This document shows positions 1 through 26,654 of a DNA stretch of 35,194 nt, piece by piece. The stretch lies in IMG/VR virus record IMGVR_UViG_3300032288_001247, positions 1 to 35,194 of that record; one strand, written 5' to 3'. Both the position numbers and the translations under genes were made by a program. This stretch comes from a virus. The notes beneath the pieces were generated by a model, which saw only the letters and a program-made list of their open reading frames with translations, was not told the DNA's origin and did no database searches. Position 1 is the first letter of the stretch, and every line of letters begins with the position of its first letter.

Positions 1-571
1 CAGCAAAGTGCATAGCTTCTTCAGGGAGAGCAACTGATTCTTTACCATTTACCACCTGAATAAGTTTCTGTGTTATATCAGCAACACCATTTGCACCAAT
101 TATTTCACCATTGACAGCTATCTTGCTAACAGCTTGATAATCAACACCTATATTATTAAGAAACTCTTTAATACGTTTGATTGTCTCAGGAGAAGCTTTT
201 GATAGTTCTGTTCCTGGAAGCTGAAACATTCTATCTGCAGGATCAGTTTGTTGATCTAATGGTAGTTTCCTATATTCATATTCAACATATGCTGGGTCAA
301 CATTTAATGTAATTGTAACTGGATCATATTCAGATCTGTTTGTAACATATCCAGTTATGGTATTGTTGAATGATTTCTTGATTGATTCTAGCTTTTGGTC
401 AGCTATCCTAATAGCCTGACTTCTACTCAATGCTTTTGTTTGGGCAGCATCTATTTGACCATTTATTCTAATGGTATCATCTGACATACGTGTATACGTA
501 TATCTACCCTCAAAAGCTTCATCAAAGGCATTATCTAATATTGCTTTTTTAACATCTAGTCTACAAGCCAT
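1..571 (-). CDS. N-terminal part of a large virion protein with a zincin-like EEAMHF motif (cut by window edge)
   Basis: The first 190 residues are visible, starting MACRLDVKKA; the rest lies beyond base 1. The ATG overlaps the stop of the giant polymerase gene in the arrangement TAATG, so translation is probably coupled. The last visible residues read LPEEAMHF (EEAMHF at 184-189). I recall EE-x-x-HF-type motifs in the large zincin-like proteins beside crAss-like RNA polymerases, where they resemble a metallopeptidase active site; here the downstream ligands cannot be seen. No signal peptide or membrane segment is visible. Position directly after the polymerase suggests another protein packaged in the virion and ejected with DNA. 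That it is coding is near certain; the metallopeptidase-like assignment is inference. It could equally be a second polymerase-associated polypeptide. Confidence 0.75.
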   Translation of the reverse strand, partial: MACRLDVKKAILDNAFDEAFEGRYTYTRMSDDTIRINGQIDAAQTKALSRSQAIRIADQKLESIKKSFNNTITGYVTNRSEYDPVTITLNVDPAYVEYEYRKLPLDQQTDPADRMFQLPGTELSKASPETIKRIKEFLNNIGVDYQAVSKIAVNGEIIGANGVADITQKLIQVVNGKESVALPEEAMHFA

Positions 572-3500
572 TAGTTACATTTTTGATCTTTAATATTCAA
601 GTTCTTGTCAGGAAACTTATCTACAACTGGAGGTTTGGTGTAGTTTTCCTCAAGGTCTTTGAGAGCAGCTTGATTGATTCTATCTTCATATTGTCCTGTT
701 GTTTCACCTTCTTCTTTAAGAATTGTGTCATGCTTTACTTCATGAATCAATGCAAAGGTAAAAAATTCATCTGAACTTTTGAACGCATCTTCAGCTAAAG
801 GTGTAGCAAAAGATCCATCGAGTTGCTTAGCTGGTTTGGTCCAAGCCTTATCATCAAACTTTTGAACCATGGCTTTATAATCTATAGTGATTACACCAGT
901 TTGCCTATTGTTTTGCATTGCAACAACTGTTTCCTTTTGTGTAGGAATCTTGTCTACAAAGTTCAACGTTTTACCTCTGAATGATTTCTGAGCCATTCCT
1001 TTCTCTGGAGTGAATAGTTCTTTCTTCTTAGGTTCTTCAACAGACTTAGGTTCTAGAGGAGCAGGAGCTATTGGTTTAGGATCTGTTGTTCTTGGTGCAT
1101 AATAATTAATGATGTCTGCATCAGGGATCTCATTGTCAATCTTCTTTGTACCATTGTTGAACACAGAAGGCTTGTTTACATTATAATACTCAGAAGCAAA
1201 TGCCCCATCTCCAAGAAGATTGATGAGTTTATAGATGTGTATAGCATTTCCATCCTTATCATATATAAGAACAGGATCACCGTTATCATATTTCACCTTC
1301 TGGTAACCGTATACATCCTTGTATGACATATCACCTTTTGCTTTCATTTGAGCAATCATTGATCTTGTCATAGTGGTTCCTGTCTCAACATCAATCATGT
1401 CACCAGTTTTCTTATCTGTAACAACTGCAGGAACCAAGAGGAAGTCTCTTTGAACATCCAGATAGTTATAAGCCTCATTGAGTGTAAGGATTTTTCTATC
1501 AGTAGAGGTTATGTTCAGATTTGGAATATCTGGGAACGCAGGAGAGTTGTATTGGTAGATGTCAATAATGTCACCACCATATGTATCAATTTGTCCAATA
1601 GGCTCATCATTTACAAAAAACTTAGGAGAAACAGTTCTCCATACATCTGAATTCTTCCAGTTGTTCCTTTGGAAAGCTCCTTTTGCAAATGCTGCCAGTT
1701 CAGGAGTGGCTACAAGATTTGCAATAACTGGAGCGATTGTTTTGCTGAAGTCTTCAATAGGAATTACATTCCTTATTGATATTGCACTCTGGTAAGTTCC
1801 TTGAAGGATAGCCAGCTTTACAATGTTGTTGTACAGAGCATTTGTTTCAGGATTGTCTCTAAGCTCTCTAAACATTCCCTGATAGAGATTTTCACTGTAC
1901 GCAGTTTTGTCATTCACTCTGAGCTTAATACTCTTTGCTCCATCAAACCTATCAGAACTAACCACTTGGAGATCGTTCAACAATCTGTTTTCAGGAAACT
2001 TAGCCTGAGCTTCAGCAAGTTGTGTAGCTACAGCTGTAGCAGGATCTACCAATAATGCTTTTAATTCATCACCTAGTGTTGTTTTGGTTTGGACTATGAA
2101 ATCCAGAAAAGCTGATGTAATTCTGTTTCCTATCTTTTCATAATCGTCAGCTGACAAATACTGATTCTCAGCAAATGGTCTCAATACTGTATCACTTATT
2201 ATTCTCAGTTTTGGATTCTCAAGCTTCAGATATTCTCCCAATGCTTCTGTAGACTTGTCAATCAAGAAAGCCTGATCACCAATAAATGAGTTATCCAACA
2301 CTTTATCTATAGATGAGAATATATTTCTCTCTCTTGCCTGCTGGGTTCTTGTTTGTTTTCTGAACAGTGCATCACCACTACCAAATTTAGTAGTGTCGTA
2401 GTTATATCCCTGAGTGAGAGTGAAGCTGAACTCAGCCATCTTAGCATATTTCAAGAACTCAAAGAATATCTTTTGCTGCACAGCATTGTCTATATCTGTA
2501 TCAAACTTACCACCGTTATTGTAATACTTCTCAATGTTACTCTCAAGAGCGTCTACATCTATGCCTGCTGCTCTAAATGTTTCTCCTTTTGCAGGGAAGG
2601 ATTCAAGGATACTGTTTATGTTTTTCTTGTTAAACAGATTCTTATAACCAATACTATCCAAGTGATTGAGATATTTAGCAATGATTGGTTGATTCATAAA
2701 CATTGCAACTTTCTCACCTGCACCAATTCTCTCAAGATACATAAATGTACCAACAACTAATTCACTCTTAATAAGTTTCATGATGTATGGATCTTTTGCT
2801 ACATCCACAAAAGATGTACCATATCCAGATAGCCTATCAGATATGTATTGCTTTCCATCTTCAGTCTTTGCTCCAGACATTGATACATATGTTTTTCCAT
2901 TTACATCAACAGTGTTGTGAGGGAGAACAACTGAACCATCACCAAGAAGTTCTTTGTCTCTCTTTGACAGAAGTTGAAATCTCTCTGGATCAATATATAT
3001 CTGAGACTTTTGGAACAGTGAATGACCTGTAATGTTAACAGCAGCAATACCCACCCATTTCTTTGCAGATACAAACGCATGCCTGAGGGTGGTCATGTAG
3101 CTTCTATTAAGAAGCCTGTTCTTAATCTTGCTCTCGTCAAAACCTGTTAATTCGTCCAGTCTTTCAGATAGTTTCTTAAGACCACCATCACTTACAGGAG
3201 AAATCAATCTGTTAAACACCTCAGGGAGCGTAAGCAGTTCTTCAAGAGATTCGTAGTATTCATTCTCCAAAGATTGCTTATATGCCTGATTTACAAACTT
3301 TTGTTTAAGTTCAGCCTGAACAGATGCATCACCAAGCTTCTCCAAATCCTTCATGAGAGAATCTGCCAAATCAGAAGCATCATTATAGTCTTGTAACAGT
3401 ACATCCAAAATATTACCATACCTTGTAAGAAGATTTTTTGGATCTGCTAGGGTGTATGTAAGAATGTCAACTGCCTCAAGTAGTTCAGCTTTCTTAACTG

Positions 3501-6500
3501 CTTTACCTTCAAGAATCCTATCAAACTCATCACTGAAGAAACTTTTTGTTTTTTCTTCAGATCCTAGATATTTTACCAACTTAACCTCACCTCTTGCATT
3601 TACATAGACAGACTTAAGATACATATTGAGTTTATCAATATCAAAGTCAGATCCTGCTTTAGTGGTGATTTCAGAAGGTACAACAACTGTTGCCCCCATA
3701 TATTGTGGGAGGAATCCTTTCACCTTAAACACCTCAACAGAACTTGTTGCCTGTGTAGGAATACGGAATCCTATACCTGTAAGAATCTTCCTACCCTCTT
3801 CTGTATTGTTCAGATAGTTGAGGATATCTTCATCTGTTTTAAACTTGTTTTTTGGAAACTTGTCTTTGAACCAGTGAGGAAGCATCACTTCACAATATGG
3901 AGCATCCTTTGTATAGAACTTCAGGGTGTCATCTGTAAGTGCTACCTTCTTCTTCTCATTCTCATCCAGCTTATCATATTCCTCTCTGGTTATCTTTTTC
4001 CAACCATCTTTGGTTTTATAAGCCAAGCTTCTTCCTTTTGTAGCAGATTCCCAGAGAGTGACAGGAACCTGTACGTGGGCACCACCACTCATTCTTGGAG
4101 AAACAAGGGCTTTGTCCACCATAGAGAACATAATGCTTCTTATCTGTAGATATGCAGGGGATGATTCAAAAGGCACTCTGAATTGACCATTCTCATCAGT
4201 TCTAACAGTATCAATAGCATTATCAGAAAGCTCTCTTCTAAGCATTTCATACTCAAGAGCTTCTGAAAGTTTCTTGCTGTCTACCACTTTAAAGCTATCA
4301 CCAAGGTCTTCAATTCCCAACTTATTAAGAAGTTCCTTATAGGAATTCTCATGCATCTTGTCAAGAATATCTTTATTCCTATCGTAAGCTTTCTTTATAA
4401 TTGCCTTTCTTTCAGGATCTTTACCAAGAGGTTCACCATTGCTATAGAGATCCATGCTTGACATTTTGGTAAGCTGAGACCCTCTTGTTTGAGACTTATC
4501 ATCCTCTGTTGTGGTTTCCACCTGAATACCATAAGCTTTCCAAGGAACTTCAATTCGGTTGTTAAATGCCTCTTGATTGAATGATCCATCTTGATTGTAC
4601 AAGCTATGGAGATTCTCAGCACCCACCTTTCTACCACTCACCATCACTGCATATCCTATGTCTTCCTTCATCATCTTCAGATAAAGGTTCTCTAGATTGG
4701 TTCCCTCAACCATGCTGTAATACATAGGCATTTGAGAAAACTTATCCAATACCAGATCAATGGTGTTTTTATTATGTTTACTACCAGATACAATAGGTTT
4801 CAACACCTCTATTGTATGTTTTGGTGAAGGAGATGAAATGGTTTTCTCATCCTGCTTTTTAAGATTGTCATTTGTATACTTATACAATCCCTTGGCAGAC
4901 ATCCTATTTCTTGTATAGGCCATTTGCCATTGGTGCCAATCTTCAGCCTCCTTACCCCATTGTCCATTCTTATTCTTGATTTCTCTGTAGGTAGTATCCA
5001 TTAATATAGATGCAGCATCTGCTTCATTTGTTTTAGCGTAAGCATCTTTTATATTTTTAGAAACACCTTCCATCATAGCAATACTACCAACAATATTTAC
5101 ATCAGCAGTGGTAATTGTTGGAGTGTAGCTTCTGTGTAGATGATAACCAGGATCTCCAGGAGCAAGTGATATATCTCCTGCTTTATTCCTGCTATTCAAC
5201 CATGTATTAAACTCAGGACTATCAAATGTCACTCTTCTTGGAGAGAGGAATGATTTAATACGTTTTGTCTCATCTAGCTGATTTTCTTTAATTGCAAACT
5301 GGTAAGGATCACCAAACAATACCTTGTGGAACTCAATATTGTTTATAATGTAATTGGTGTTTGCAAATTTGAACAATGCCTTCAACTCATCCTCAGACAT
5401 GTCATATTTATTAACATCTTGTTCTTTTGCAAACTTATCATTCATTGATGGGAATGAATATGTATTCTCATCAACTTGGAAAATCTGACTATTGTTTTGG
5501 AAATCTCTAATGGAATCATCCACTGTACCATTTATATAGTCGTTTACATTTGCATTTATCTCAGAAATGTTATCGTTGATAAACTTCTTAATTTTCTCTT
5601 TGTCACCCTTTTCTATCAGCTTGTTCAACTTTTTTAAAAGGTTTTCAGAAAGAATATCTTTGAAGAAACGAAGTTCTTTTGCACGAGGTTTAACATTTCT
5701 CAAATAAGATCTGTCAGACAGGGCAAGTTCAATATCATCTTCCAGGTAGCCTCTGAATATTTTGTGGATCTGATCATTAGCTTCATTTCCTTCAAAATCT
5801 TCAAAGTTTATGTGGTTTCCAAGATTGAGCATCCATTCTGTAGATCCATCTGCAGGAATAAGAACATAATAGTCACCAGCAAGATTTTGATTAAATTCTT
5901 GTGTGAATCTGTTACCAAGTCCCAGTCTTGATGTAGGAGTTCCTTTATCATCCACTGTATCTTTTGTACCCTGGATGTATCCCACCTTCAGTTTCCTATC
6001 TGTACGTTTACCATCTTTGTCAAAGAATGGACCTCCCTTTTGGAGAATCAAACTGTTTTTAGAGAATACATCATTAAGTTCAGGTCTTGCAGAAAGAAGT
6101 TCGTCAAGCGTTTCTATCTCATTAAATGTGTTCTCAAATACAGAAGGAGCATTGCTATCAGCATAAGATTGCTGACGTTTACCATCTACACCAAAATATG
6201 TAGAATCTATATTTGGATTGGTAGCTTTTATATAAAGTTCTGCAAGAGTGTTCAGCTGACCATTTATGGTGAGTGTTTCTCCTGTAATCTTTCCTATCTC
6301 TTTCTCACTTGCATATTTATGTATTGCAGACACAGCCCTTCCAAAAGCTCTTTGTTGGGGTTCTTTAAGGTTTTGGTAAACCTCAAATGGGAAGTTTATA
6401 CCAAGCTTGTCAAGAAACTCAACCATCTGTTGAGGATTGCCAATAGGAATATCAGACAGTTTCTTTGTTCTATATGTCTTATCTGGAGAATAATAATATA

Positions 6501-9500
6501 TCAGAGATGAGTTATCATTTGCTAATGTCTTAACATTCTCAAGCCATCCCTGCTTAAATTGTTCTACAGCACTGAACAGATTAGCCGCACCATTATACAC
6601 TTCATTGTTTTCACCTATGTATTGTATAACAGCATTAGGCTTTTGTTTTGTAAATGTCTGGTAGAAGTTGATAAACAATCTCCAGTCTTGTTCTTCAAAC
6701 TTTGAGAAGTCTATAGATACAGTGTTTCTATCACCTTTCAGACGAGTGAACAGACGAACATAATTACCGTCATATCTAGACAGTTCAATAAGTTTGTCTA
6801 CAAGTTTGGTTACACTGGTGGTGTTTGCAAACTTATCCATAGCTGTTGCAAAGGTTCTTGCAAAGTTTAGGATTTTGTATCCGTTTACACTAGATAGTTT
6901 TTGTTTTGGAAGATCCAGGGAAGCAGTATCTATTTGGCTAGTTGGTACAGTTTCTGTCAGTGTACCCAGGATGAGCTTAATAGGGAATGGAGATTGTTTC
7001 TTCCAGTCTGTAGAGAATGCCTCACGTGCGTAGTCATTCTTATTATAGTTCTCATCATTGATACCAAGAACACCCTCTTCGTCAAAATCTATTTTGAATG
7101 TACGAAGGAAGTCACGAGTTTTACCAATAAGTTGTCTCCATGCATTTTCAGAGAGCAAATCCAATTTACCCTCTTCCTGATACATTTCTTTTATTTCTGC
7201 AAATATCTGAGGAGCTGTAATTTGCTCAGGATTGTACAAAGACATGTTTGTTCCAAATGCTATCTGGAAAACACGAGCTGTAATATCCTGTACAAAGTCA
7301 TGAGTTTGTTCTTCTGTCAATCCTTCTACAGCTCTATATTCAGCAAAGTCATTCTTAACACTTTCTGAAAGTGTGCTTTCTTTAAACTTACCTGTATCAA
7401 TAGCTTTGAACAGTTGCTCCTTCATAGAAGGTTTCTGTACAAATTGCTTGAAGAATTCAATGATACTTTTGAAGAATCTAAGTATTCTTTCTCCTAGAGA
7501 ACGAGCAGGAAGTTTACCAAGTCTGAACTCAGCAAAATCATCAGCAATTCTTTCTTTAGCCTGCTGATCTGTAGCATCTGCATATGCAATCTTCTTACCA
7601 GACTGCCTATCTATAAACTCACCCTTTTTAGCTTTAAACTCATCGAGAATAGCTTGTCTTTCTTCTTGAGAAAGAAATCCTTTCCATACACCCTCAAACA
7701 CTTCATGGTATTCTGTACCTCTAGCTGCAGATTTATAGAACTTAGCTACACCCTTCTCAAACGCACCCCAAGCTTTTTCATTATCATGTGTAACAAGAAT
7801 GTTCTCAGTGATTTCATAAGGAATGCCAGGAACTTTCTCAGCAGCCCAAGTTTTGAATAAATCAAGCTCTTCACTAGAAATTCTTTCTACACCACCAACA
7901 CCCACTCTTCTGTATTCACTGTTAGGTGGAGGTTTAGTTCCTTTGAAATCTTTTGGTGCAGCAGGTTTAGCTTCTTCTGATTTCCTTTTTTGTTCAATAA
8001 CACCTTTTACTTCTTCTAAGAACAAAGCTTTTCCTTTATCAAAAGATCCAGGAGTCATTAAAGCAGCTCTTGTTGCCATACTAACAGCTCCATCATCATA
8101 AGGGTTTATACCAACAAGTTTTTCAGCAGCTTTGATTAGCTCTTCTTTGTTTTTAGCATTTAATACATTTTGAATATCATTGTCTATATCAGCTTTAGCT
8201 TCTGTAACTACAGGAGCTGTTGCAAGAGGTGTTCCTTTAACTGTTATTTGATCATCTGAATAAGCAGCAGATAACTCATTATATTTCTTTTCAGGATCAC
8301 TAATCTTTTCTTCTTTTTTTATGTCCTTATATTCTCCCTGGAAGAATGAAGAATAATTACCATCGACAATCTTTCCATCTTTTACAGTGAATGTATAAGA
8401 TTCAGAGAAGGTGTCTGTACCAGTTGGTTTAATTGTTATAGTTCCTTCAGAGATGGTAATTGGTTTACCAACCTTTTCTGGAGCTTTTTCAACCACTACC
8501 TCAGCAGCAGGAGCAACTGAAGCGTTATATTGTTTTTGCAAATTGTTTGCTATCATCAAAGAAACAAAACTAAGAGCATGTTGCTCGTCTGTTTCTGTAG
8601 CATTGAATTTGTCTCCCTGTTCATTCTTTAATGTAGGAATTATTGTATCCCTAAGGATATCTTTATTCTCAGCAACCTTTTTTATTGTATCATTAGACTC
8701 TACATCTACAATCACCGCACCATTCTTAACAGTGGCTGTAAATCCAACAGGACCATTCTTAAGTTGGAATACATTTTGTGTTACACCATCTACAGTGTAT
8801 TCACCTATTTTCTCTCCAGAAGGAGCAGGGGCTGTAGGAGCTGCTGGTTTAACAGCAGGCTTCACTGCAAGAGGAGGAAGTTCTACACCATCAAGAATAG
8901 AATACTTTTGTTTGAAGTTGAAAGGTTTGAGTTCTGTGGGTTTCTGAATAGGTGTAGTCAAAGGAATGTCTGATGTTGCCCTATTAGATCCATCTGGATA
9001 TTTTGAAGACAGCAGGTATGACTGATAGTTATCCCATTGTCTTGTTGCAAGATTTCCAGATTTGTCAACATAATACTCATTGAACTTCTCACTGAAGTTC
9101 TTTGTAAGAGAATCATTATTTACATTAGCATACAGATTCTCAAGCTGGTCTATAATTTCAGCCTCACTTGCACCAAGATCTGTCAAATCATATCTCTTTC
9201 CACCAAAGAATAAATCCATTGTATCATAGTCAATGAATATCTGGTTCTTATCTGTCTTGGGTGACTTTCTCCAATAGAGAACATTTTGAAGAAACTTAGT
9301 ATACTTCTTGTTGCTCTTTATCTTCTTTCCCTGGTCAAGCTTTTCCTTAATGTCTTCAGACATCTTTTTCATCACCTCATAAACAGCACGTGCTTCAGCT
9401 TTGGTGAACTTACGTGTTTTGAGGAATGTTAACACATCTCTGTATTGGAAAACAGGAACACCATCAGGGAACTTAAGGTTGCGTCCTTGATGTTGAATAG

Positions 9501-12500
9501 TTCCTGTTGTAGGAATTACAACAAGTCCTTCTTGGTAAACAATCTCACTTTCAGGAATAAGAGTTTCACCAACAGAATTATTGTCATTAACATTTGCTAT
9601 ATCTGGAATACCAGGACTTACAGAGAACTTATATATTTCATATTTTTCTTCTGCAACATCAAACAGTTGTTTACGTTTAGCTTTCCACCTATCTGCATAT
9701 TCTTGTGCTCTGTCTGAATCTGTTCCTCTATATCTGTTTTCTTTATTACTCCATACAAGACTTGTTGTAGGCATAGTGTCAAACACCACCTCATTTATAT
9801 CAACCTTATCACCAACCTTTCCAAGCCTCTTACCATTCTTATCTACAAAATATACGTCAGATCCATCTTGTTCAACATACACTGCACCTATAAATCCATT
9901 ATCTATATCTGTATATGTAGAAGGATCTGCACCAGTGGCAGTCATTGATAAGGCAGTTAGTCCAGATAAACCAAGAGATTTTTCCTGATTCTCTGTAACA
10001 AGGATTATTCTGAGATTATTTCTGTTAGGAAGATTCTTGTAGTTGTTTCTAAATACAATAGCACGCTGTTGACTAGGACTAAGTTTACCTGATTCCCAGT
10101 CTTCAGAAGCACCAGCAGTTGATGTGAATAAGAATTCGATTGCTTTCTTCTTATCTTCTACATTAAATTCAGTTGGTGTTTTTGCTGTATTTTCTTTAGA
10201 GGCTATTGTTCCAGATGTGTGTTCAATATCCTTTTGATCTTCTTCTACATCTTGTTTAAACTTCTGCAGTTTCTCCTGTTCAGTTTCCACCTTCTCATAT
10301 CCCTCAAACTTAGATGGATCAATATTATATATGTCACCATTGATATCTTCCACCTTCACTGTACCATCAGGATTGATGGCAATCACCTTTGCTTTCTGAA
10401 GGTTGCCTAGTTCTTCATTCACTTCAGCTGCAGCAGCATTTGCTTCATCTCTTGTAGGATAGAATGTAGATGTGCCATCAGGTAGAGTCACCTTAAATCT
10501 ATCATCAGCAATCTTTCTAACTTTAGCTTTCTTAGTTTCTGGAATCTGGTATTCTCTACCCACCTCAAACTCTTGCTTTTCACCAGCTTTGTTTACAAAC
10601 TGAGGACCTTCTGCTACAACAATTGGTTCTTCTTCTTTCTTTTCTTCTTCTTCAGGAACAGCTCTTGACTTTTCTGAATCATTCATGAACTTATTAAATC
10701 CTGACTCACTTGTCAAGTTATCAAATAGTTCAGATACACGATCTTTCAGTGCGTTGTGTCTATTTACATCATGACCATATTCATACAAAGCAGTTGACCA
10801 CTCTGGTCCAACAACTCTTTCTGCTTTTGGATTCTGACCATTAAGCTCAAAATTAAGCAGATAGTCAAACAGTTTTGTATCTACCTGAGAAGATAGACCA
10901 AGATTGATTCTTTCAGAAGCAGTGCGCAGAGCTTTAACTTGATCCTTTACATTTTTTCTATCTCGTGGATCAGTTGTTTCTGTAATTGTTTTATTAAGCT
11001 GGTTTGCCCTTTCTTCATATATTGAACTCAGTTCTTTGAGCAACTCCTTATTAGTAAGTTGTGCAATAAGTTCATTTGATATAGCAGGGTTTATTTCAGA
11101 TACACTTTGTTGAATAGAATCCAACCTATTGTTAATATGTGGAATCTTAGAAGCAGCACGAATTATTTCTGTTTTCCAATCATTAAAATCATTATACTTA
11201 ATGTTCTGTAAACCTTCTTCTTCGTTCTTTGGATTAATAGTTTGTGTGAAAGGATTCTTGAATGTTGAGTCAATAGAATCACTAATTTTCTTTATTTCAT
11301 TTGCCTGAACAATCAAAGAGTCTACGTATTCACTTACAGTGGATTTATTAGAAGAACCGAAATCCATACCAAATGTCTTCTCAAATTCTTCTTTATCCAA
11401 ATCCTTCAACATTCTCAATTGTTCAATTGTAACATCATGCATGCCGATAGCATTACGTGATTGTACAAAATTTAAGAACATATCGTGTTGAAGATTCTTA
11501 TATCTGAAAACATCACCAGACTTCGCAGCTTCTTCCATATCTTTGGCAATACCAGCTGAATTTATGGTATTATCAAAGTTACCACCTAATGTTCCAGTGA
11601 GTCCATATTGATTAAGGATATTAATTGCACTTTGCAGACGTGCATCAGATCCTTCTCCTTTCGCTTTATCAATTCTAGACATCGCACCACCAGTGAGCAT
11701 TGCACTAATGGCACCTACAATCATGTTCTCCAATCCCTCGTCTGTTCCAAATTGATCTTTCAATCCTTTCACTGTAGAGTCAACTGCCTCAACTGTTGTC
11801 TGCCAGTTATCCTTGTTTATAGGATCAGAAAGATTTTTATACTTTCTTGTGAAGTAGTCATATGTTCCTTTTTCTGCAGCATATTGACCACCTTCCTCAT
11901 ATACACCTTCTGCTAGAATATTTGGTAATTTAGGTTGTACAGATTCCCAAATTTTTCCAGAGATGGTTTGAGCACCTTTCTTTTCAAATACATCAATTGA
12001 TCCTTCCTTCAAACCAATTTTACCAATCTCATCTATATCTCTTGTTAATTGACCTGTAAGACCTTTTTGTGCAGATGTAAATGATTTAAACAGATTACCA
12101 AATTGAATTGTATTAGATGCTGTAAGCAATGCCATGTTAATACCAAACCTGGTATTCATAGCATCAGTTGCATATTTTTCAATTTGTTCTAAATCAGCAC
12201 CAACTGGTTCTTTTCCAGGATTTTGACTTTTGTATTCTTTAACCAACTCATCTCTCACTGTACGATAGGAATCTCTAGCTTCAATTGCAGCTTCAGTTCT
12301 AGAAGAACCATAGATACCCATTCCGTATCTAAATCCATTTGTTATCTTTGTTCCAGCAGCAATTTCTCCAAGACGTTTGATGTTTAGAATCTGCTTCTCA
12401 GTTTTACCAACAGCAGAAGCAAGATCTAAAACTCTATCCACCTTTGTAGTACCAGCATAAAGTTTATTAAGCCACAAAGAAGCTTTGCCAAGTTGAGCTG

Positions 12501-13191
12501 CTACCAATGGAGCAGCACCAATTCCTTCTGTAGCAGCTCCAATAATTGCATCCTGTACAAGAGCACCACCAATTGCACCTGCTGTAAATCCAAGATTCTT
12601 AATAATTTTATCTCCCCAGAAGTTAGCACTTCCAGGCATGAAAGGAATCATTGCCAGATATGGACTTTCTCTTTCCTTTCTAGTGTAATAGTTAGGAAAG
12701 TAGTCTTCAAGATTCTTTGTCCAATCATCTATTGCAGATTCATAACTATCTGGTCCTCCAGATAAATCAGCAAATTTTTTGTTTTTTATTGCAGAGAATG
12801 TATCAGGGATTGTGGCAAAACTTTGGGCAAATGTACCAGCAGCCAATCCTGCCATTTTAACTACACTGTTTCCCAGCTGTGCCCATGCAGATTGTTGCAT
12901 TCCATAGATGTTCTCAAGATCCATTCCTCTAACATAAGTGTTGTATCTTTTGTTAGCTGCCACTTCACTCAATGGTATTAGATTAGCACCACCTCCTTGT
13001 CCAGGAAGTTTTGCAATCTTTGACAATTGAGAACCATCAAGTCCTTCAATAGACTTGTTTCCAACACCAAAACCTCCAAGAGCTGGAGGTGTGGGCATAG
13101 GGCTCAATTGAGGAGTACCTAAAGCAAGCTGTGGAATAGGATCACCTTCAACAGGATTGTTCGTTATGAGTTCATCTTCAAAGACTGCCAT
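571..13191 (-). CDS. Giant virion-packaged RNA polymerase polyprotein (crAss-like, DxDxD) with two zincin-like domains
   Basis: 4206 residues. The catalytic signature of the crAss-like single-chain virion RNA polymerase (family of phage phi14:2 gp66, related to YonO/QDE-1 double-psi barrel enzymes) is GSDFDIDKL, with DFDID at 3182-3186, whose aspartates should bind catalytic magnesium. Upstream lie SGGAHVQVP (about 3030-3040) and GFRIPTQ...VVVPSE; downstream are KKWVGIAAVN and FVDVAKDPYIMKL (about 3460), blocks I associate with this family. Other regions: hydrophobic segments near 200-245 and 480-510, an acidic linker near 850, Pro/Ala-rich linkers near 1460 and 4060, a zincin-like block with HEVFE at 1829-1833 followed by KERIADDFAEF (1879-1889), and HEVKH at 4150-4154 near the C-terminus. 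Roughly twice the size of phi14:2 gp66 as I remember it, so fusion of normally separate proteins is likely. Probably ejected into the host to transcribe early genes. Both ends form TAATG overlaps with neighbours. Confidence 0.9.
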   Translation of the reverse strand: MAVFEDELITNNPVEGDPIPQLALGTPQLSPMPTPPALGGFGVGNKSIEGLDGSQLSKIAKLPGQGGGANLIPLSEVAANKRYNTYVRGMDLENIYGMQQSAWAQLGNSVVKMAGLAAGTFAQSFATIPDTFSAIKNKKFADLSGGPDSYESAIDDWTKNLEDYFPNYYTRKERESPYLAMIPFMPGSANFWGDKIIKNLGFTAGAIGGALVQDAIIGAATEGIGAAPLVAAQLGKASLWLNKLYAGTTKVDRVLDLASAVGKTEKQILNIKRLGEIAAGTKITNGFRYGMGIYGSSRTEAAIEARDSYRTVRDELVKEYKSQNPGKEPVGADLEQIEKYATDAMNTRFGINMALLTASNTIQFGNLFKSFTSAQKGLTGQLTRDIDEIGKIGLKEGSIDVFEKKGAQTISGKIWESVQPKLPNILAEGVYEEGGQYAAEKGTYDYFTRKYKNLSDPINKDNWQTTVEAVDSTVKGLKDQFGTDEGLENMIVGAISAMLTGGAMSRIDKAKGEGSDARLQSAINILNQYGLTGTLGGNFDNTINSAGIAKDMEEAAKSGDVFRYKNLQHDMFLNFVQSRNAIGMHDVTIEQLRMLKDLDKEEFEKTFGMDFGSSNKSTVSEYVDSLIVQANEIKKISDSIDSTFKNPFTQTINPKNEEEGLQNIKYNDFNDWKTEIIRAASKIPHINNRLDSIQQSVSEINPAISNELIAQLTNKELLKELSSIYEERANQLNKTITETTDPRDRKNVKDQVKALRTASERINLGLSSQVDTKLFDYLLNFELNGQNPKAERVVGPEWSTALYEYGHDVNRHNALKDRVSELFDNLTSESGFNKFMNDSEKSRAVPEEEEKKEEEPIVVAEGPQFVNKAGEKQEFEVGREYQIPETKKAKVRKIADDRFKVTLPDGTSTFYPTRDEANAAAAEVNEELGNLQKAKVIAINPDGTVKVEDINGDIYNIDPSKFEGYEKVETEQEKLQKFKQDVEEDQKDIEHTSGTIASKENTAKTPTEFNVEDKKKAIEFLFTSTAGASEDWESGKLSPSQQRAIVFRNNYKNLPNRNNLRIILVTENQEKSLGLSGLTALSMTATGADPSTYTDIDNGFIGAVYVEQDGSDVYFVDKNGKRLGKVGDKVDINEVVFDTMPTTSLVWSNKENRYRGTDSDRAQEYADRWKAKRKQLFDVAEEKYEIYKFSVSPGIPDIANVNDNNSVGETLIPESEIVYQEGLVVIPTTGTIQHQGRNLKFPDGVPVFQYRDVLTFLKTRKFTKAEARAVYEVMKKMSEDIKEKLDQGKKIKSNKKYTKFLQNVLYWRKSPKTDKNQIFIDYDTMDLFFGGKRYDLTDLGASEAEIIDQLENLYANVNNDSLTKNFSEKFNEYYVDKSGNLATRQWDNYQSYLLSSKYPDGSNRATSDIPLTTPIQKPTELKPFNFKQKYSILDGVELPPLAVKPAVKPAAPTAPAPSGEKIGEYTVDGVTQNVFQLKNGPVGFTATVKNGAVIVDVESNDTIKKVAENKDILRDTIIPTLKNEQGDKFNATETDEQHALSFVSLMIANNLQKQYNASVAPAAEVVVEKAPEKVGKPITISEGTITIKPTGTDTFSESYTFTVKDGKIVDGNYSSFFQGEYKDIKKEEKISDPEKKYNELSAAYSDDQITVKGTPLATAPVVTEAKADIDNDIQNVLNAKNKEELIKAAEKLVGINPYDDGAVSMATRAALMTPGSFDKGKALFLEEVKGVIEQKRKSEEAKPAAPKDFKGTKPPPNSEYRRVGVGGVERISSEELDLFKTWAAEKVPGIPYEITENILVTHDNEKAWGAFEKGVAKFYKSAARGTEYHEVFEGVWKGFLSQEERQAILDEFKAKKGEFIDRQSGKKIAYADATDQQAKERIADDFAEFRLGKLPARSLGERILRFFKSIIEFFKQFVQKPSMKEQLFKAIDTGKFKESTLSESVKNDFAEYRAVEGLTEEQTHDFVQDITARVFQIAFGTNMSLYNPEQITAPQIFAEIKEMYQEEGKLDLLSENAWRQLIGKTRDFLRTFKIDFDEEGVLGINDENYNKNDYAREAFSTDWKKQSPFPIKLILGTLTETVPTSQIDTASLDLPKQKLSSVNGYKILNFARTFATAMDKFANTTSVTKLVDKLIELSRYDGNYVRLFTRLKGDRNTVSIDFSKFEEQDWRLFINFYQTFTKQKPNAVIQYIGENNEVYNGAANLFSAVEQFKQGWLENVKTLANDNSSLIYYYSPDKTYRTKKLSDIPIGNPQQMVEFLDKLGINFPFEVYQNLKEPQQRAFGRAVSAIHKYASEKEIGKITGETLTINGQLNTLAELYIKATNPNIDSTYFGVDGKRQQSYADSNAPSVFENTFNEIETLDELLSARPELNDVFSKNSLILQKGGPFFDKDGKRTDRKLKVGYIQGTKDTVDDKGTPTSRLGLGNRFTQEFNQNLAGDYYVLIPADGSTEWMLNLGNHINFEDFEGNEANDQIHKIFRGYLEDDIELALSDRSYLRNVKPRAKELRFFKDILSENLLKKLNKLIEKGDKEKIKKFINDNISEINANVNDYINGTVDDSIRDFQNNSQIFQVDENTYSFPSMNDKFAKEQDVNKYDMSEDELKALFKFANTNYIINNIEFHKVLFGDPYQFAIKENQLDETKRIKSFLSPRRVTFDSPEFNTWLNSRNKAGDISLAPGDPGYHLHRSYTPTITTADVNIVGSIAMMEGVSKNIKDAYAKTNEADAASILMDTTYREIKNKNGQWGKEAEDWHQWQMAYTRNRMSAKGLYKYTNDNLKKQDEKTISSPSPKHTIEVLKPIVSGSKHNKNTIDLVLDKFSQMPMYYSMVEGTNLENLYLKMMKEDIGYAVMVSGRKVGAENLHSLYNQDGSFNQEAFNNRIEVPWKAYGIQVETTTEDDKSQTRGSQLTKMSSMDLYSNGEPLGKDPERKAIIKKAYDRNKDILDKMHENSYKELLNKLGIEDLGDSFKVVDSKKLSEALEYEMLRRELSDNAIDTVRTDENGQFRVPFESSPAYLQIRSIMFSMVDKALVSPRMSGGAHVQVPVTLWESATKGRSLAYKTKDGWKKITREEYDKLDENEKKKVALTDDTLKFYTKDAPYCEVMLPHWFKDKFPKNKFKTDEDILNYLNNTEEGRKILTGIGFRIPTQATSSVEVFKVKGFLPQYMGATVVVPSEITTKAGSDFDIDKLNMYLKSVYVNARGEVKLVKYLGSEEKTKSFFSDEFDRILEGKAVKKAELLEAVDILTYTLADPKNLLTRYGNILDVLLQDYNDASDLADSLMKDLEKLGDASVQAELKQKFVNQAYKQSLENEYYESLEELLTLPEVFNRLISPVSDGGLKKLSERLDELTGFDESKIKNRLLNRSYMTTLRHAFVSAKKWVGIAAVNITGHSLFQKSQIYIDPERFQLLSKRDKELLGDGSVVLPHNTVDVNGKTYVSMSGAKTEDGKQYISDRLSGYGTSFVDVAKDPYIMKLIKSELVVGTFMYLERIGAGEKVAMFMNQPIIAKYLNHLDSIGYKNLFNKKNINSILESFPAKGETFRAAGIDVDALESNIEKYYNNGGKFDTDIDNAVQQKIFFEFLKYAKMAEFSFTLTQGYNYDTTKFGSGDALFRKQTRTQQARERNIFSSIDKVLDNSFIGDQAFLIDKSTEALGEYLKLENPKLRIISDTVLRPFAENQYLSADDYEKIGNRITSAFLDFIVQTKTTLGDELKALLVDPATAVATQLAEAQAKFPENRLLNDLQVVSSDRFDGAKSIKLRVNDKTAYSENLYQGMFRELRDNPETNALYNNIVKLAILQGTYQSAISIRNVIPIEDFSKTIAPVIANLVATPELAAFAKGAFQRNNWKNSDVWRTVSPKFFVNDEPIGQIDTYGGDIIDIYQYNSPAFPDIPNLNITSTDRKILTLNEAYNYLDVQRDFLLVPAVVTDKKTGDMIDVETGTTMTRSMIAQMKAKGDMSYKDVYGYQKVKYDNGDPVLIYDKDGNAIHIYKLINLLGDGAFASEYYNVNKPSVFNNGTKKIDNEIPDADIINYYAPRTTDPKPIAPAPLEPKSVEEPKKKELFTPEKGMAQKSFRGKTLNFVDKIPTQKETVVAMQNNRQTGVITIDYKAMVQKFDDKAWTKPAKQLDGSFATPLAEDAFKSSDEFFTFALIHEVKHDTILKEEGETTGQYEDRINQAALKDLEENYTKPPVVDKFPDKNLNIKDQKCN

Positions 13192-15833
13192 TACTTACTA
13201 GCTTTTATTTCTTCGTACTTTCTTGTACCTATATTTTGCATAATTTGAAATATGCCATCCAGTTTTGCAAAACCTTCTTTATTAACAATGTCTGACTTCC
13301 AAGTACCATTATCGTTTACATACATCCTAAGTTGATACAAATCATCATCATCACCATTGTTATCATCAGCTCCTTCAATATCAAACCTTACTAGATTTGC
13401 ATACCTACTTCCTTGGAGAAGAGGTAATTGATTTCCTGTAAATGCAGCGTTAAGTGCTCCAGAAGGTCCGCCATCAATTGCACCTATTGCATTTGTTGTT
13501 TTTGTAGCAGAACCCATTATCATATACTTTGCTCCATCTAAAGGATGACCTTGTGCTGCTTGTGGAAAATATCTACCTAACTGAGTAGAATTAAGTGGAA
13601 TCTCTTGAACCTCGTTACCATTAAAAATCTGTAATACTCCTTGAGACATATCAGCTTTTCTCTTTACAACATACTTCAAGTCACCAGCTGTTTTACCTGT
13701 TCTCCACGCTGTTATGGTAGCAGGATCAAATTTTTCAGAATCAATTTTTCCACCAAGTTGATTTGCTATTGCGTACATATTACCAATAAGATTATCAACT
13801 TTTCCCATTGTAACTTTATCTTCTTTATCTAATGTACCCACCTCATCTTGATATTGTGGCATTATTTTACCAAGTTCTGTATTTATGAACTTGTTTTTTT
13901 CAAGCTGTATCTTCATACCTTTACTCGTAACTTCACTGCGAATATTATCAAGACTTCGCATTATTGCAACTTCATCACCTTGTAGAGAAGCTAGTCCTGT
14001 CTTGCTTCTTTTTTCTAGAGCGTTTATAATTGGAACATATTTAGAATTAGCATATGCCTGTTTCATAGCAGCCCAATCAACCTGACCTCCACCAATAACA
14101 GTTCCAAATTTATCACGTTTGTAATCAGATCTAAACCTATTCATATCAAGTGTTACATCTTGCATTTCTTTTGCACTATACACCTGTCTACCATTTTTTA
14201 CATAACCAGGAAGAGTTTCTACAATTTTATCAATTGCATCATCGTAAGGTTTAGCTTTTGATGTAATGTTTACATAATTGCCCATCCTTCTAGTCATATC
14301 AGTTTGCATACCAATCCACTGATCAAGAATTCTTCTTTTGTTATTATCAGTGATACTTGATGGATTTGCTTGGTATTGATTGACCAATGTATTCATTGCC
14401 TCTCTTCTTTGGTCATCAGTCATTTTATCATAACCAGAAATCAAGAAAGGAGCTTTTTCCCTTTTGAACACTTTCATTGATTCATCAAGGTCTGTAATAC
14501 CTGTCTGCAAGTCTTTGAGTGTAGGAAGAGTTTTGTCTTTATCTATTCCTGCATCTTCAAATATAATATCTTTACCAGCAGCATCTTTTGTTAGTTTGAA
14601 CTTCTCTATATTAAGTCTTTCTAAATCTAGTCCGTATTCTCTATCTTTATTCTTTTGATCTCTTGCAGCATTCCAATACTTAAACTCCAAGTCCTTTTTC
14701 TTCATCAAAGCATTGAAGTAAGGGTTGTCTTTATATTCTGTTTCTATACTTTGATAGGAAATATCAGTAGCAAGTTTACTTAGAGTTTTCTCCATGTATA
14801 CAGAACCTTTCAACTCATCATCACCCAGTCTGTCAATGTTGCTGAGTTTATCACGCATTTCTCTATCAATTCCTCCTTTATTAACAAGATCTGTATAGTC
14901 ATTTAATCTTGCTTCAAGAGCATCTTTTTGCTCCTTTGTGAGTTTAGAATTTCCAGAGAGATCTGCAGAGATTTTTACAATCTCTTTAGATAGTATATCT
15001 TTCTTTGTATTATATGAAGAAGTTATATCACTTACTATTTTTTGTCTGAATGTATCTCCAGTGTATCCTTTGTAATGATACCAACCATCTATATTCAGTT
15101 GTCTTTTATCATTCTCATCAAGACTACTATAGAAGTTGTCAAGGATTTTTTGGGCAGATTTACCCTTAACCTTAGTTTTTAACATTACATCATCTATCCT
15201 AGCCTGACCTTTATCTGGAGTGGTAAGTCTACCAGCTTTATCAAAATATAAAACGTTTCCAGAGTTATCTCTTTGGAAAGGTATTTCTATAGATTGATCA
15301 TACTCATGAACATCTTTGGCAACATCTCTAAGTTTCTTTTCAATATCTGTATATTCAACATAATAGTCTGAAAATGAAGACTTTGCATTACCATCACTCA
15401 ACCAATTGTTCACTTTGTTATTAAACCATTCTTCATTTTGAATAGAAGACTTACCTGCTTTTCTAGCAGCTTCCATATCACTTTGTCCCTTTCTAACATA
15501 TTGTGTAGACTGGACAGCATTTTTAATTGTAGGATCTTTAACAATTTGGGTGGCCATACCGCCTACAGAATTAACCAATTGGAAGTTGGAAAAGTCACCA
15601 GCAGCTACATTCTTTAATTTACCACCAAGCTCATTAAGTTTGGATTGAAGATATTGCTTATGGATGGGTTTTATAACGTCCAATCCAGCCACATTATCAA
15701 TGTAGCTTTGGATTTTCTGTACTCCTTCTTCATACTTCTGCTGCTTATACATGCCCACTTGAGCCATTGCCTCTAGGGGCAATTGCTGCACATACGGGCG
15801 AGATTGCAATATTTGGTCTGTAAATGAAGCCAT
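13191..15833 (-). CDS. Large helical cargo/ejection-type virion protein (880 aa)
   Basis: No enzymatic motif is recognised. The N-terminus (FTDQILQSRPYVQQLPLEAM, then a YKQQKYEEGVQKIQSYIDNV-like helix and a LGGKLKNVAAGDFSNFQL block, about residues 5-85) resembles an N-terminal region I associate with large internal virion proteins of crAss-like and other Bacteroidota phages. The rest is hydrophilic, Lys/Asp-rich and predominantly helix-forming with several coiled-coil-like stretches; an acidic patch DDNNGDDDD lies near residue 840. No membrane segment or signal peptide is visible. It sits between the 1189-residue protein and the giant polymerase, sharing a TAATG overlap with the latter, which fits a set of proteins stored in the capsid or tail and ejected together. 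Its start is preceded by the only substantial gap in this half of the window, with a candidate promoter. Coding is certain; the cargo role is inferred from position and size. Confidence 0.8.
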   Translation of the reverse strand: MASFTDQILQSRPYVQQLPLEAMAQVGMYKQQKYEEGVQKIQSYIDNVAGLDVIKPIHKQYLQSKLNELGGKLKNVAAGDFSNFQLVNSVGGMATQIVKDPTIKNAVQSTQYVRKGQSDMEAARKAGKSSIQNEEWFNNKVNNWLSDGNAKSSFSDYYVEYTDIEKKLRDVAKDVHEYDQSIEIPFQRDNSGNVLYFDKAGRLTTPDKGQARIDDVMLKTKVKGKSAQKILDNFYSSLDENDKRQLNIDGWYHYKGYTGDTFRQKIVSDITSSYNTKKDILSKEIVKISADLSGNSKLTKEQKDALEARLNDYTDLVNKGGIDREMRDKLSNIDRLGDDELKGSVYMEKTLSKLATDISYQSIETEYKDNPYFNALMKKKDLEFKYWNAARDQKNKDREYGLDLERLNIEKFKLTKDAAGKDIIFEDAGIDKDKTLPTLKDLQTGITDLDESMKVFKREKAPFLISGYDKMTDDQRREAMNTLVNQYQANPSSITDNNKRRILDQWIGMQTDMTRRMGNYVNITSKAKPYDDAIDKIVETLPGYVKNGRQVYSAKEMQDVTLDMNRFRSDYKRDKFGTVIGGGQVDWAAMKQAYANSKYVPIINALEKRSKTGLASLQGDEVAIMRSLDNIRSEVTSKGMKIQLEKNKFINTELGKIMPQYQDEVGTLDKEDKVTMGKVDNLIGNMYAIANQLGGKIDSEKFDPATITAWRTGKTAGDLKYVVKRKADMSQGVLQIFNGNEVQEIPLNSTQLGRYFPQAAQGHPLDGAKYMIMGSATKTTNAIGAIDGGPSGALNAAFTGNQLPLLQGSRYANLVRFDIEGADDNNGDDDDLYQLRMYVNDNGTWKSDIVNKEGFAKLDGIFQIMQNIGTRKYEEIKASK

Positions 15834-15848
15834 GATGGATTAAGTTAG

Positions 15849-15880
15849 CAAATTTAATTTAAAATATTATACCAACCAAG
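15849..15880 (-). promoter_or_regulatory. Candidate Bacteroidota-type promoter upstream of the 880-aa gene
   Basis: On the minus strand the gap contains TAAATTTG (15849-15856), an exact match to the Bacteroidota -7 consensus TAnnTTTG. CTTG (15877-15880), three of four bases of the -33 TTTG element, lies 20 bases upstream. Transcription would start just before the 880-residue gene. In an AT-rich genome such an 8-mer with four free choices can occur by chance, so this is a candidate only. Confidence 0.35.
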
Positions 15881-15911
15881 AGACTGTAACTGTTTCTGTT
15901 AAGTTGGTATA
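15868..15911 (-). terminator. Inverted repeat in the 1189/880 gene spacer (possible terminator or attenuator)
   Basis: TATACCAAC (15868-15876) and GTTGGTATA (15903-15911) are perfect 9-base arms around a 26-base loop. On the minus strand the hairpin is followed by an AT-rich stretch (ATATTTTAAATT) but no clean U-run, so a weak terminator, attenuator or processing site are all possible. It lies just downstream of the stop codon of the 1189-residue gene. Confidence 0.45.
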
Positions 15912-15926
15912 ACTGATTCAGTTATA
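15908..15926. repeat. 19-base palindrome overlapping the stop codon of the 1189-aa gene
   Basis: TATAACTGA and TCAGTTATA flank one central base, an almost perfect dyad. It contains the TAA stop (15922-15924) of the 1189-residue gene and shares four bases with the larger inverted repeat at 15868-15911, so the two hairpins are mutually exclusive. It may be an operator-like site or half of a switching RNA structure. Confidence 0.5.
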
Positions 15927-18900
15927 GGTTTTTAATAGCTTTTACGATAGATCCGTTTTTACCAGTGACAGGTTTCTTTTTCTTATCTTCTATCTTCTTA
16001 GCATCAAGTATTTTTTGAAGCTCTTCAGTGCTGTAATCTGCTATTGTAGGAATATTGAATTTGGTGGTTCCTGTGCTGTAAATCCTACCCTGAGGACCAT
16101 ATGAGAATTGAGGATACATATTTGCCATGACATTTGCAGACAGGGTTTCTGCCTTGTTTTTGCCAATCTTTTCAGCAATAGAGCTAAGAGCCTCAAATGC
16201 CTGGACTTTTGTAGCAGATTTAGCTTTAGCTTGTTTATCCTGTTGTTGGTCAATGATAGCAATATTCTTAAGAGTGGTGTCCTTAAGATTGGCAATATTC
16301 CTGAGACGAGATTCGGTCTGGATAGCTTGATTAGTTCTAAACTGCTCAGCTAGCACCTTATTCTTAGCTTTAATAGCTTCAGCAGCAATGCTTGCCTGGG
16401 CAGCTGGATTGTTACCTGTTAGCCTCATTGCAGCATTTGTCTGAGCCTGAATCTCATTCAATTGGTCTTGGAAAGAAATAGTGGGCACCTCTTCCAATAT
16501 AGGTGTAATTTTTTGTGCTCCTACTGGTTCCAGCTGATTGGTAGACAAAGCGTACATTTCTCCAGCTAGCTGACTAGGGTCAAGTGGATTTCTGATACCA
16601 GGTTTGATATAGGGATATAGTGTGTCATATGCTTCCAAACCTTTCTCCAAAAGAGTTTGTTTTTCAGGTGGAACTGTAGGATTAGGTCTTACTATCTCCA
16701 TACGTTCCACTAGTGGAATAAATGGATTACTAGGAGCATTATATCGAAAAGGAGCTTCTGGATTTGCTTTTCTGAATGCAGCATCTTCAGCTGCTAGTTG
16801 TTCAGCAGTTGGAAGAAACTTAGACATGTCAATATTTATATTCTTTCCTTTCTGAGCCTTATCAATACTTTTACCAAACTTAGCCATATCTGAATCTTTA
16901 GCTGGTTTAATTTTATTCTTAGCAAGAGCATCACTTTCTAAACCCATCTCTTCTGCTGTATCAAGAATCGCATTCTGTATACCTGCGAGAAGCTTCTTTT
17001 TGTCAGCAATTTCTCCATATGTAGCGTCTGCTCCTTCTAGCATAGCTTTTCCTGTATTGAGCTTAAGAATGTCAAATGGACTATCACCATCTACATTGTC
17101 AATAATTTCTAACGCTTTATCCTTAGTTTTCTCTGCTTTCTTCTCTTTTTTACTGAGATCAGCAGCATAGTGTTTGAACTTCTTACCCTTAGCTTTATCA
17201 TCACCAAGCTCACTTACACCATAGGAAGGAATCTTCATGTTACCAAAAACAATCATGCTTAAATCTCCTGTTTCTGGATCAGGAAGTTCTACAGCAGGTT
17301 CACCTCTCTCCACCTCAACATCAGCATCAGCCTGTTTTGTTCCATATTCTGCATAGTCAGTGTAGCTATCGTGAGCTCCCTGTCCATATTTAACACCTAT
17401 TCCTGTATGTCCATTTCCATCACTTTCTTCATGTGACTTTCCTCTAAACATTACAGTTTCTCCAGATCCTGGCAGATATGGATTCTGTGACATAGTTTCA
17501 GCATATCCACCCCATGTAGTTTTAAGTTGTCCACCCAAAGCCATTGTTTCCAAAGCCTCTTCACTAGGAGGAGTGTAACTGTAGTCTTTCAAATGACCAC
17601 CAGACCTAAGCATTTCTGCATCTTTAGGAGGTGCAAGAAGATCTTTCAAATCATAATCACCAAACTTAGTAATGAGTTGCGGTTGCCAGTCGTTACTCAG
17701 ATAACCACCATCTTCCATTACACTACTATATTGATTCTGAAGACTTTGTGAACCCTGTTGAAAAGCAGCTTGACCCAACAATTGTTGATTCTGCTTCATC
17801 CTACGTTCTGTGCCCATGTCAATAAAGCCACTTGCAACATCACCAACAACTTGTGCGCTTTTTCCTATTTGATCAAATATTGGATTACTACCTATATTAA
17901 GTAGACCCTGACCACCATCTGCCATTTTCAATTTACCACCTTTCTTGTATTGTTTCACTTGATTACTATCATCCATTGGTTCATATCCTAGATCCATGTA
18001 TAGATTGCCAGGATTGTACATATTTTGAATTTCAGTTAGATTGCCTCCAACCTGCATACCGTTTCTAGCAAGAAAACCCATACCTGTTCCATAAGCATTT
18101 CCACCCTGACCAGGTTGTAAAGGATTTTTTTCTTGACGATCATATCTACGTTTTGTTTCTTCTGGTCTAGTGGAGGATGCTTGTAAAGCAAGCTTGGATA
18201 GGTTACCAGCTTGTCTAGCTTTTTGAGCTTGTTTGATAGATTGATCTATCTTTCTACCAGCATTTATAACTTGTCCAATAGGTTTTCCAATAGGACCAAG
18301 TGCATTAATTCCTTTATCCAAAAGTTTTCCTCCAGCAGTGGTTGCTAAAGACCTTTGTTTTCCAGACTGTTGTTGCTGTTGGGTAGGCCCAGTGGGGGTT
18401 TGAGGAAAGGTTTGCCATGTGTATGGATTAGCATTAGTTGCGCCACTCATATCCATTGGGGTACCAAGATTAAAAGCAGAATCTACAGCACTTGGTATAT
18501 TTCCACCAGGTTGATACTTTTGAATTTTAGAACCATATCTAGCAAACATCATAGCTAACTTAGCTGCTTCTCCAACTTTTTTCATAGTGTCATCACCACC
18601 ACCACTAGTGTTTTGAGAATCAGAAACTTGTTCTTCTTCATAAAGTTTTTTCAATCTAGCTTCTTCAGCTCTCATTGCGTTGGTTTTTCCAGTTGCCATA
18701 TAGTCCAAATCATCAAATGCTCCTCTGAAGTCAAATGGTTGTTGTACTTTTGATTCACCACCAATATAGCTTCCGAATTGGGCTTTTGATAGTTTCTTAC
18801 CCTTTTTAGCTTTTGCCATTTCGTTATAATTTGTAAAATTAAGTAGTTGGTCCAATTTTTTCAGGGGAGCCTCATCAGCTTTGTTAACACTGATGCCAGT

Positions 18901-20360: not shown

Positions 20361-20362
20361 AT

Positions 20363-21007: not shown

Positions 21008-21017
21008 ATATTATATT

Positions 21018-26649: not shown

Positions 26650-26654
26650 TTATT

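Follow-up and report, generated by a model that had tools for sequence, protein, structure and literature searches.

The window, i.e., the whole 35,194-base stretch of an IMG/VR virus record analysed here, carries on its minus strand a giant ORF that opens with ATG and runs without an internal stop. The preliminary description had placed at positions 571-13191, naming no strand, a chain of 4206 residues with the motifs HEVFE, DFDID and HEVKH, and its coordinates, length and motif positions were confirmed. The features of the locus, all on the minus strand, are as follows:

13191..15833, minus strand: upstream ORF of 880 aa at the position of the smaller cargo protein, without cysteine at its ends.
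571..13191, minus strand: giant ORF, 4206 aa, composed of a gp47-like part, a zincin-like domain, a gp66/gp50-like RNAP, an accessory zincin and a cysteine tail (fusion state B).
10402..12993, minus strand: residues 67-930, with homology to the N-terminal part of crAss001 gp47 (i-E 1.8e-26 and 9.7e-23; gp47-like profile E 7.8e-32).
7297..7911, minus strand: residues 1761-1965, predicted zincin-like domain at the gp47/RNAP joint, from its match to the C-terminal HEAFH domain of crAss001 gp47, AlphaFold2, and structural matches to PPEP/M34 and IrrE zincins.
7693..7707, minus strand: HEVFE, residues 1829-1833, a variant HExxE site recognized in the alignment of relatives.
7534..7557, minus strand: ligand helix K1879-E1880-R-I-A-D-D-F, with K1879 coupled to E1833 and E1880 invariant.
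2422..4986, minus strand: residues 2736-3590, two-barrel RNAP core by homology to phi14:2 gp66 and crAss001 gp50.
3634..3648, minus strand: DFDID, residues 3182-3186, RNAP catalytic motif aligned with gp66.
595..969, minus strand: residues 4075-4199, putative accessory C-terminal zincin-like module with HEVKH at 4150-4154 and E4169 as candidate third ligand, sporadic in relatives.
577..579, minus strand: Cys4205, the next-to-last residue of the giant and one of two cysteines in the chain, the other being Cys3100 inside the RNAP core.
2..571, minus strand: first 190 codons of the following gene, which is gp49/gp65-like and truncated where the record stops; its product begins MACRLDVKK, with Cys3 at bases 563-565, and contains LPEEAMHF.

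Scans of the whole giant ORF against Pfam and PHROGs gave no match above the cut-off, and a DNA-level search for it among phage records found none. We compared a profile built from relatives of the window protein with reference crassviruses. Residues 1803-1948 matched the C-terminal HEAFH domain of crAss001 gp47 and its cr128 counterpart, and residues 2544-3590 matched phi14:2 gp66 and crAss001 gp50; the RNAP region 2736-3533 aligned with phi14:2 gp66 (PDB 6VR4) at E 3.6e-17, DFDID included, and at E 1.7e-28 with a profile. Since the gp47-like and RNAP matches lie in one ORF, the window giant is, by homology, a single gene in which two virion proteins of Crassvirales are fused: crAss001 gp47, identified as virion cargo by mass spectrometry (PMC10172136), and the RNAP represented by phi14:2 gp66 and crAss001 gp50. 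The earlier view of a single chain that combines a cargo-type part, a virion RNAP and two zincin-like domains thus stands, as does the statement that phi14:2 gp66 is about half this size: it has 2180 aa, and the other half corresponds to the product of the neighbouring gene in phi14:2. Shuffling the giant protein yielded a mean of 0.20 HE..[HE] motifs (P of two or more = 0.019) and 0.02 HE..H motifs (P = 0.02). As these P values are only about 0.02, the motifs by themselves are modest evidence and the real test is their conservation.

The same parts are arranged differently among relatives. In crAss001, gp47 and gp50 are separate genes on opposite strands; in phi14:2 the genes corresponding to gp47 and the RNAP adjoin, and in Dulem virus 41 the gene break falls directly after the zincin-like domain. 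The gp47::RNAP fusion is the rule in the window's clade (3655-5140 aa) and in gut Suoliviridae, and giants of this type generally span 3.6-5.6 kaa, while in Intestiviridae (R. jaberico, ctbg_1, crAss002) gp47 stands alone and gp66 is fused to gp65. Fusions being so common, the size of the window giant is not unusual, and a review gives virion RNAP chains of up to about 6000 aa (PMC10136315). Packaging in the virion and transcription of early genes by a crAss-like two-barrel RNAP are known for phi14:2 and crAss001 relatives only (PMC10136315, PMC10172136). Two irregular loci were seen: in cr108_1 (14506-26096 of locus L016) the RNAP gene is split inside DxDxD, the first ORF ending in VAKAGSD and the second resuming about 290 nt on, probably across an intron, and the giant of L004 lies in two overlapping ORFs (2512 and 1653 aa; 17499-17539), probably owing to a frameshift or assembly error.

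The preliminary description had proposed zincin-like domains on both sides of the DxDxD core. For the central one the predicted fold supports this. An AlphaFold2 model from 52 sequences (pLDDT 75.8, pTM 0.73; an earlier model from 10 sequences reached a pLDDT of only 52.9) shows a helix, three strands, the motif helix and the ligand helix in this order. The structure prediction and fold search that had been suggested as a check returned zincins as the best matches, with Z from 7.4 to 5.6: PPEP-3 (7.4), PPEP-1/Zmp1 (6.7), the M34 lethal-factor family (6.5) and IrrE of M78 (5.6). Among viral predicted structures the model matched crassvirus giants (E 1.7e-10) and large polyvalent proteins. Foldseek of the model against the PDB gave no significant match, nor did profile searches of both zincin regions against PDB sequences. 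With Z values below 8 and Foldseek non-significant, the assignment of a zincin-like fold rests on the agreement of the matches with the motif and the residue coupling described below.

The active site itself departs from the canonical HExxH, which is absent at 1829 in the window protein. Conserved loss of its His and Glu residues in close relatives had been named as a refutation, and the outcome is divided: His1829 and Glu1830, together with Glu1880 on the ligand helix, a candidate third ligand, are invariant in 74 of 74 distinct sequences, but the second ligand at 1833 varies, with Glu in 60 sequences and His in the other 14. The adjacent position 1879, the other candidate, has Lys in place of Glu in exactly the same 60 and Glu in the same 14, so that the pairs are never mixed and HExxE always goes with a ligand-helix Lys. 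A second strict pair joins Phe1832 to Ala1883, and Gly or Met to Met, Leu or Trp. Both strict pairs show the pattern expected of two packed helices of one active site. On a tree built from the RNAP core, which excludes the zincin-like domain, the E/K and H/E states switched independently at least 8 times, and the two positions switched together in all 8 independent pairs (p 0.0078). HExxE coupled to Lys makes ordinary zinc protease chemistry at this site doubtful. Simple decay was considered and is weakened by the invariant His, Glu and second Glu.

The HExxE/Lys form could instead be a zinc-free pseudo-peptidase kept for structure, in which Glu and Lys form a salt bridge in place of part of the metal site. 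The perfect double switch and its recurrence on the tree speak for this reading, to which we give slightly less than an even chance. Against it, the three invariant residues do not behave like those of a drifting dead site, and a metal bound by His, Glu and Glu, with Lys compensating the charge, fits equally well. The coupled switch also supplies a set of natural variants in which a change of chemistry at a metallopeptidase site can be followed.

The gp47-like proteins of phages that encode the RNAP by a gene of its own also end in this domain (crAss001, cr128, cr85, Dulem41, R. jaberico, ctbg_1, crAss002). The zincin-like domain before the RNAP is an old part of gp47, present in the window's clade in its switched form of doubtful catalysis. 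This bears on the proposal, made in the preliminary description, that the chain processes itself once ejected, its zincin-like domains cutting the RNAP free. It is attractive in that a zincin-like fold sits at the gp47/RNAP joint, that gene boundaries in split relatives (Dulem41, phi14:2) fall just past it, and that the fused gut giants cr1, cr50, cr118 and cr10 keep a canonical HEA[FY]H; metallopeptidase self-cutting was also proposed for N4-type vRNAPs by Iyer 2017 (PMC5512222). However, the domain is kept where the RNAP is already a separate gene, so that freeing the RNAP is not its conserved or general task. The window site is HExxE with a ligand-helix Lys, the C-terminal zincin is missing from most relatives, and the N4 vRNAP, which also has a metallopeptidase domain, is packaged unprocessed (PMC5512222). 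No sign of cutting emerged for the window chain, and we regard self-processing as quite improbable. With catalysis at 1829 doubtful and the 4150 module swappable, release of the RNAP need not depend on self-cleavage.

The C-terminal module shows the canonical HExxH...E ligand pattern, with both His, the Glu and the Glu of GQYEDRIN invariant in five sequences of 49-94% identity, which is consistent with the second zincin-like site proposed earlier. Homology searches with this module gave weak matches only, to DUF4344 (0.07) and a metzincin (1.3). On a wider view this conservation is lost, most relatives having no HEVKH. After the RNAP and before the end of the tail, relatives carry an SF1 helicase, NADAR, cpYpsA, a 2OG-Fe(II) oxygenase, a zincin or nothing, and the 4150 module is, judged by this comparison, an accessory and sporadic member of a set of swappable modules. 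With unrelated enzyme domains in variable combination, the giant chain, presumably ejected, would class as a polyvalent protein in the sense of Iyer 2017.

Several further observations concern such modules. Tails with NADAR, cpYpsA/SLOG, an SF1 helicase or an AlkB-like 2OG-Fe(II) oxygenase (L006 at 22922-25012, L064, L096, L089, L075, L053) are likely counter-defence cargo. Additional HExxH motifs (HEIGH, HEFQH) near residue 910 (L059, L092, L094, L095, L096) or 1690-1790 (L066, L069, L079) apparently belong to other inserted domains. In phi14:2 g067 (L015, 17808-23201) the place taken by the zincin in other phages is occupied by a C-terminal part that resembles, by eye, a GNAT acetyltransferase (IDEAYRRKGIASSVYQFM). 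The idea that the central and C-terminal zincins replace each other was dropped, since L067 and L068 have HExxH at both places and most relatives have none at the end. The gp49/gp65-like third cargo protein contains a conserved LPEEAMHF or LPEEFAHFA, i.e., EExxH for HExxH (window 2-571; L003 at 22897-27834; L014, L017, L102, L103), which may be another zincin-like site where one ligand has been exchanged; the stretch after it resembles PD-(D/E)XK by eye only (GTIDFLAI...LDWK).

The stronger finding concerns the cysteines. Giants have one to a few of them along the entire chain, yet nearly all end in one; the window giant has only two in 4206 residues, and in its clade the next gene after the giant always begins M-x(1-3)-C. 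All 58 distinct junctions of the clade carry a cysteine on both sides, among the final 5 residues of the giant and at residue 3-5 of the protein that follows, whereas only 4 of 97 (C-terminal) and 8 of 97 (N-terminal) control ORFs have cysteine at these positions. A cysteine falls in the last 6 residues of 60 of 66 fused giants, compared with 0.17 expected if their own few cysteines were placed at random. No such cysteine occurs at the free ends, neither at the N-terminus of the giants (0/64) nor at the C-terminus of the third protein (0/4). The window fits this rule with Cys4205, Cys3 of the next protein and a giant N-terminus without cysteine.

The pattern extends across Crassvirales, where gp47-, gp66- and gp65-like proteins are nearly free of cysteine except at ends that abut the next polypeptide. 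In phi14:2, gp67 has a single cysteine, with which it ends, gp66 has only Cys3 and Cys2179, and gp65 has only Cys3. In crAss001, gp47 ends in its only cysteine, gp50 has one near each end and one inside, and gp49 has only Cys5. Even where gp47 lies on the opposite strand from gp50/gp49 (crAss001, cr128, cr85) it still ends in its only cysteine. In R. jaberico, ctbg_1 and crAss002, gp47 ends in CS or CT and the fused RNAP starts M[AS]C, with no cysteine at its far end.

We counted these states in a wider set of 132 loci forming 88 clusters at 70% core identity, partly recruited with phi14:2 gp66 as a different query; loci with broken, cut or intron-split ORFs (L004, L018, L152, L157, L168) were excluded. 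Where gp66 has its own start, its N-terminal cysteine is present in 36 clusters and missing from 2, both with an ambiguous start codon; where gp47 is fused to it, the cysteine occurs in 0 of 46. Likewise, with gp65 separate the RNAP has a C-terminal cysteine in 76 of 77 clusters (in the exception, cr10, it lies ten residues from the end), and with gp65 fused in 0 of 5. The gp65 N-terminal and gp47 C-terminal cysteines are found in 64/64 and 30/31 clusters, respectively. Two complete gp66::gp65 chains have a single cysteine, near the start, and five complete all-fused giants (5220-5639 aa), in which gp47- and gp65-like parts are both present, have none. On the RNAP tree the fusion states changed at least 6 and at least 3 times, and in every supported independent pair (4/4 and 3/3) the cysteines changed along with them, each sign test alone being non-significant (p 0.125 and 0.25). 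As fusion changes are few, the strength of the case lies in this unanimity and in the contrast of 0.17 expected with 60 observed giants. The rule at the level of sequence is that cysteines stand on both sides of junctions between polypeptides and are lacking at fused joints. Suoliviridae giants L098, L101, L105 and L108 open only with TAG read as Gln, and the same rule then holds; a few members have extra cysteines, up to 40 in L187.

We propose that Crassvirales eject a conserved cargo of three parts whose end cysteines form inter-protein disulfides, giving one ordered chain that is freed by reduction, and we put the probability of this reading at roughly 0.7. The parts would follow in the order gp47-like protein, gp66-like virion RNAP and gp65-like protein (crAss001 gp47, gp50, gp49), all three of which are found in the crAss001 virion (PMC10172136). 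Paired terminal cysteines would bind the separate proteins into a single chain that can be threaded out of the virion by way of the narrow tail, and the RNAP and its partners would come free on reduction in the cytoplasm of the host; the scarcity of other cysteines would prevent mispairing. We find it nearly as probable that separate virion proteins are disulfide-bound head to tail throughout Crassvirales and that gene fusion and cysteine pairs are interchangeable, the fused gene achieving the same linkage by a peptide bond. In the window phage the first two members would be the 4206-aa polypeptide and the third the product of the next gene, with a predicted link from Cys4205 to Cys3 of the protein begun at 571; the 880-aa upstream ORF is excluded from the chain as it has no end cysteines. 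In keeping with the proposal, passage of the crAss001 cargo through constrictions of less than 50 angstrom requires partial unfolding, and crAss001 virions hold many inter-protein disulfides (PMC10172136).

About 14 kinds of end module were distinguished in the giant and the next protein, and each kind has a single partner or nearly so. How similar two C-ends are predicts how similar the corresponding N-ends are (Mantel r 0.88; partial 0.876 after removal of tree distance), and among close relatives all 9 of 9 end-module changes were joint. Matched modules of adjacent genes could reflect joint inheritance of a junction cassette, and the non-adjacent end pair of crAss001 compared with one environmental pair showed weak similarity (E 0.035 and 0.2), so we take the matched ends as suggestive. 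They do indicate that docking by sequence exists, and the end cysteines could coordinate a metal at the junction or mark non-covalent docking modules. The hosts of gut crassviruses are strict anaerobes, so thiol oxidation would be harder and must occur after lysis or be catalysed, which counts against the disulfide chain and in favour of metal binding or docking. We nevertheless consider metal binding or docking rather unlikely, because a usual structural zinc site needs more than a single cysteine from each side unless it has further conserved ligands, the cysteine is the sole residue kept across unrelated end modules, the near-total lack of other cysteines fits avoidance of mispairing, and both cysteines vanish on fusion.

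Many junctions overlap by a few bases, and the cysteine codons might thus serve as an RNA-level signal for translational coupling. We reject this, its likelihood being close to nil, since the same cysteines are kept when the genes are separated by 100-170 nt or by several kb, or are encoded on opposite strands, and since their positions vary from -1 to -10 and from +3 to +7. A cysteine switch, with the terminal residue capping the zincin metal, was likewise discarded: phi14:2 gp66 has the end cysteine without a zincin, and the N-terminal cysteine of the partner would go unexplained.

How phages drive very large proteins in the right order down a narrow tail has yet to be explained, and in the human gut few viruses are as abundant as crassviruses. 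If the disulfide-linked chain is true, a redox-cleavable protein train joined through single end cysteines would account for the order of ejection, for stoichiometry and for polymerase release. It would also bring the fused and the split gene layouts of crassvirus genomes, confusing as they are, under one scheme. The giant RNAP, its size and the gp47 zincin by themselves are largely known, and GenBank MH616963 already annotates a 'putative RNAP associated protein fused to zincin protease'. Our literature search on terminal-cysteine or disulfide-linked cargo in crassviruses and ejection proteins found no report; Yutin 2018 and Drobysheva 2021 lay outside its scope and may hold a prior mention.

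The closest known systems are phi14:2 gp66 (PDB 6VR4), gp67 and gp65 and crAss001 gp50, gp47 and gp49, which share with the window the RNAP core, the three-protein cargo set and the terminal cysteines. In the window, unlike in phi14:2, the gp67- and gp66-like parts are one polypeptide with a zincin-like domain at the joint, where phi14:2 g067 has none. The Suoliviridae giants cr1_1, cr50_1, cr118_1 and cr10_1 have the same gp47::RNAP fusion (4.4-4.9 kaa), joint zincin and cysteine near the C-terminus, but their motif is HEA[FY]H, paired with Glu, where the window has HExxE paired with Lys, and their tails differ. The M34/PPEP and IrrE (M78) zincins resemble the predicted fold of residues 1761-1965 and differ by HExxH, with no significant sequence match and Z below 8. 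N4-type vRNAPs and other polyvalent proteins are likewise giant ejected chains that join an RNAP, a metallopeptidase and swappable modules (here NADAR, helicase, 2OG oxygenase), although the N4 RNAP is of T7 type and that of the window two-barrel, and the cysteine rule is undescribed in Iyer et al. 2017 (PMC5512222). P23-45 gp96 is also a virion chain of about 5000 aa with RNAP and metallopeptidase domains, but it is the tape measure of a long-tailed phage and belongs to another RNAP clade (PMC10770324). Finally, the disulfides of the crAss001 tail and portal vertex, which are also inter-protein, brace folded parts of the shell (PMC10172136), whereas those proposed here would join mobile cargo end to end.
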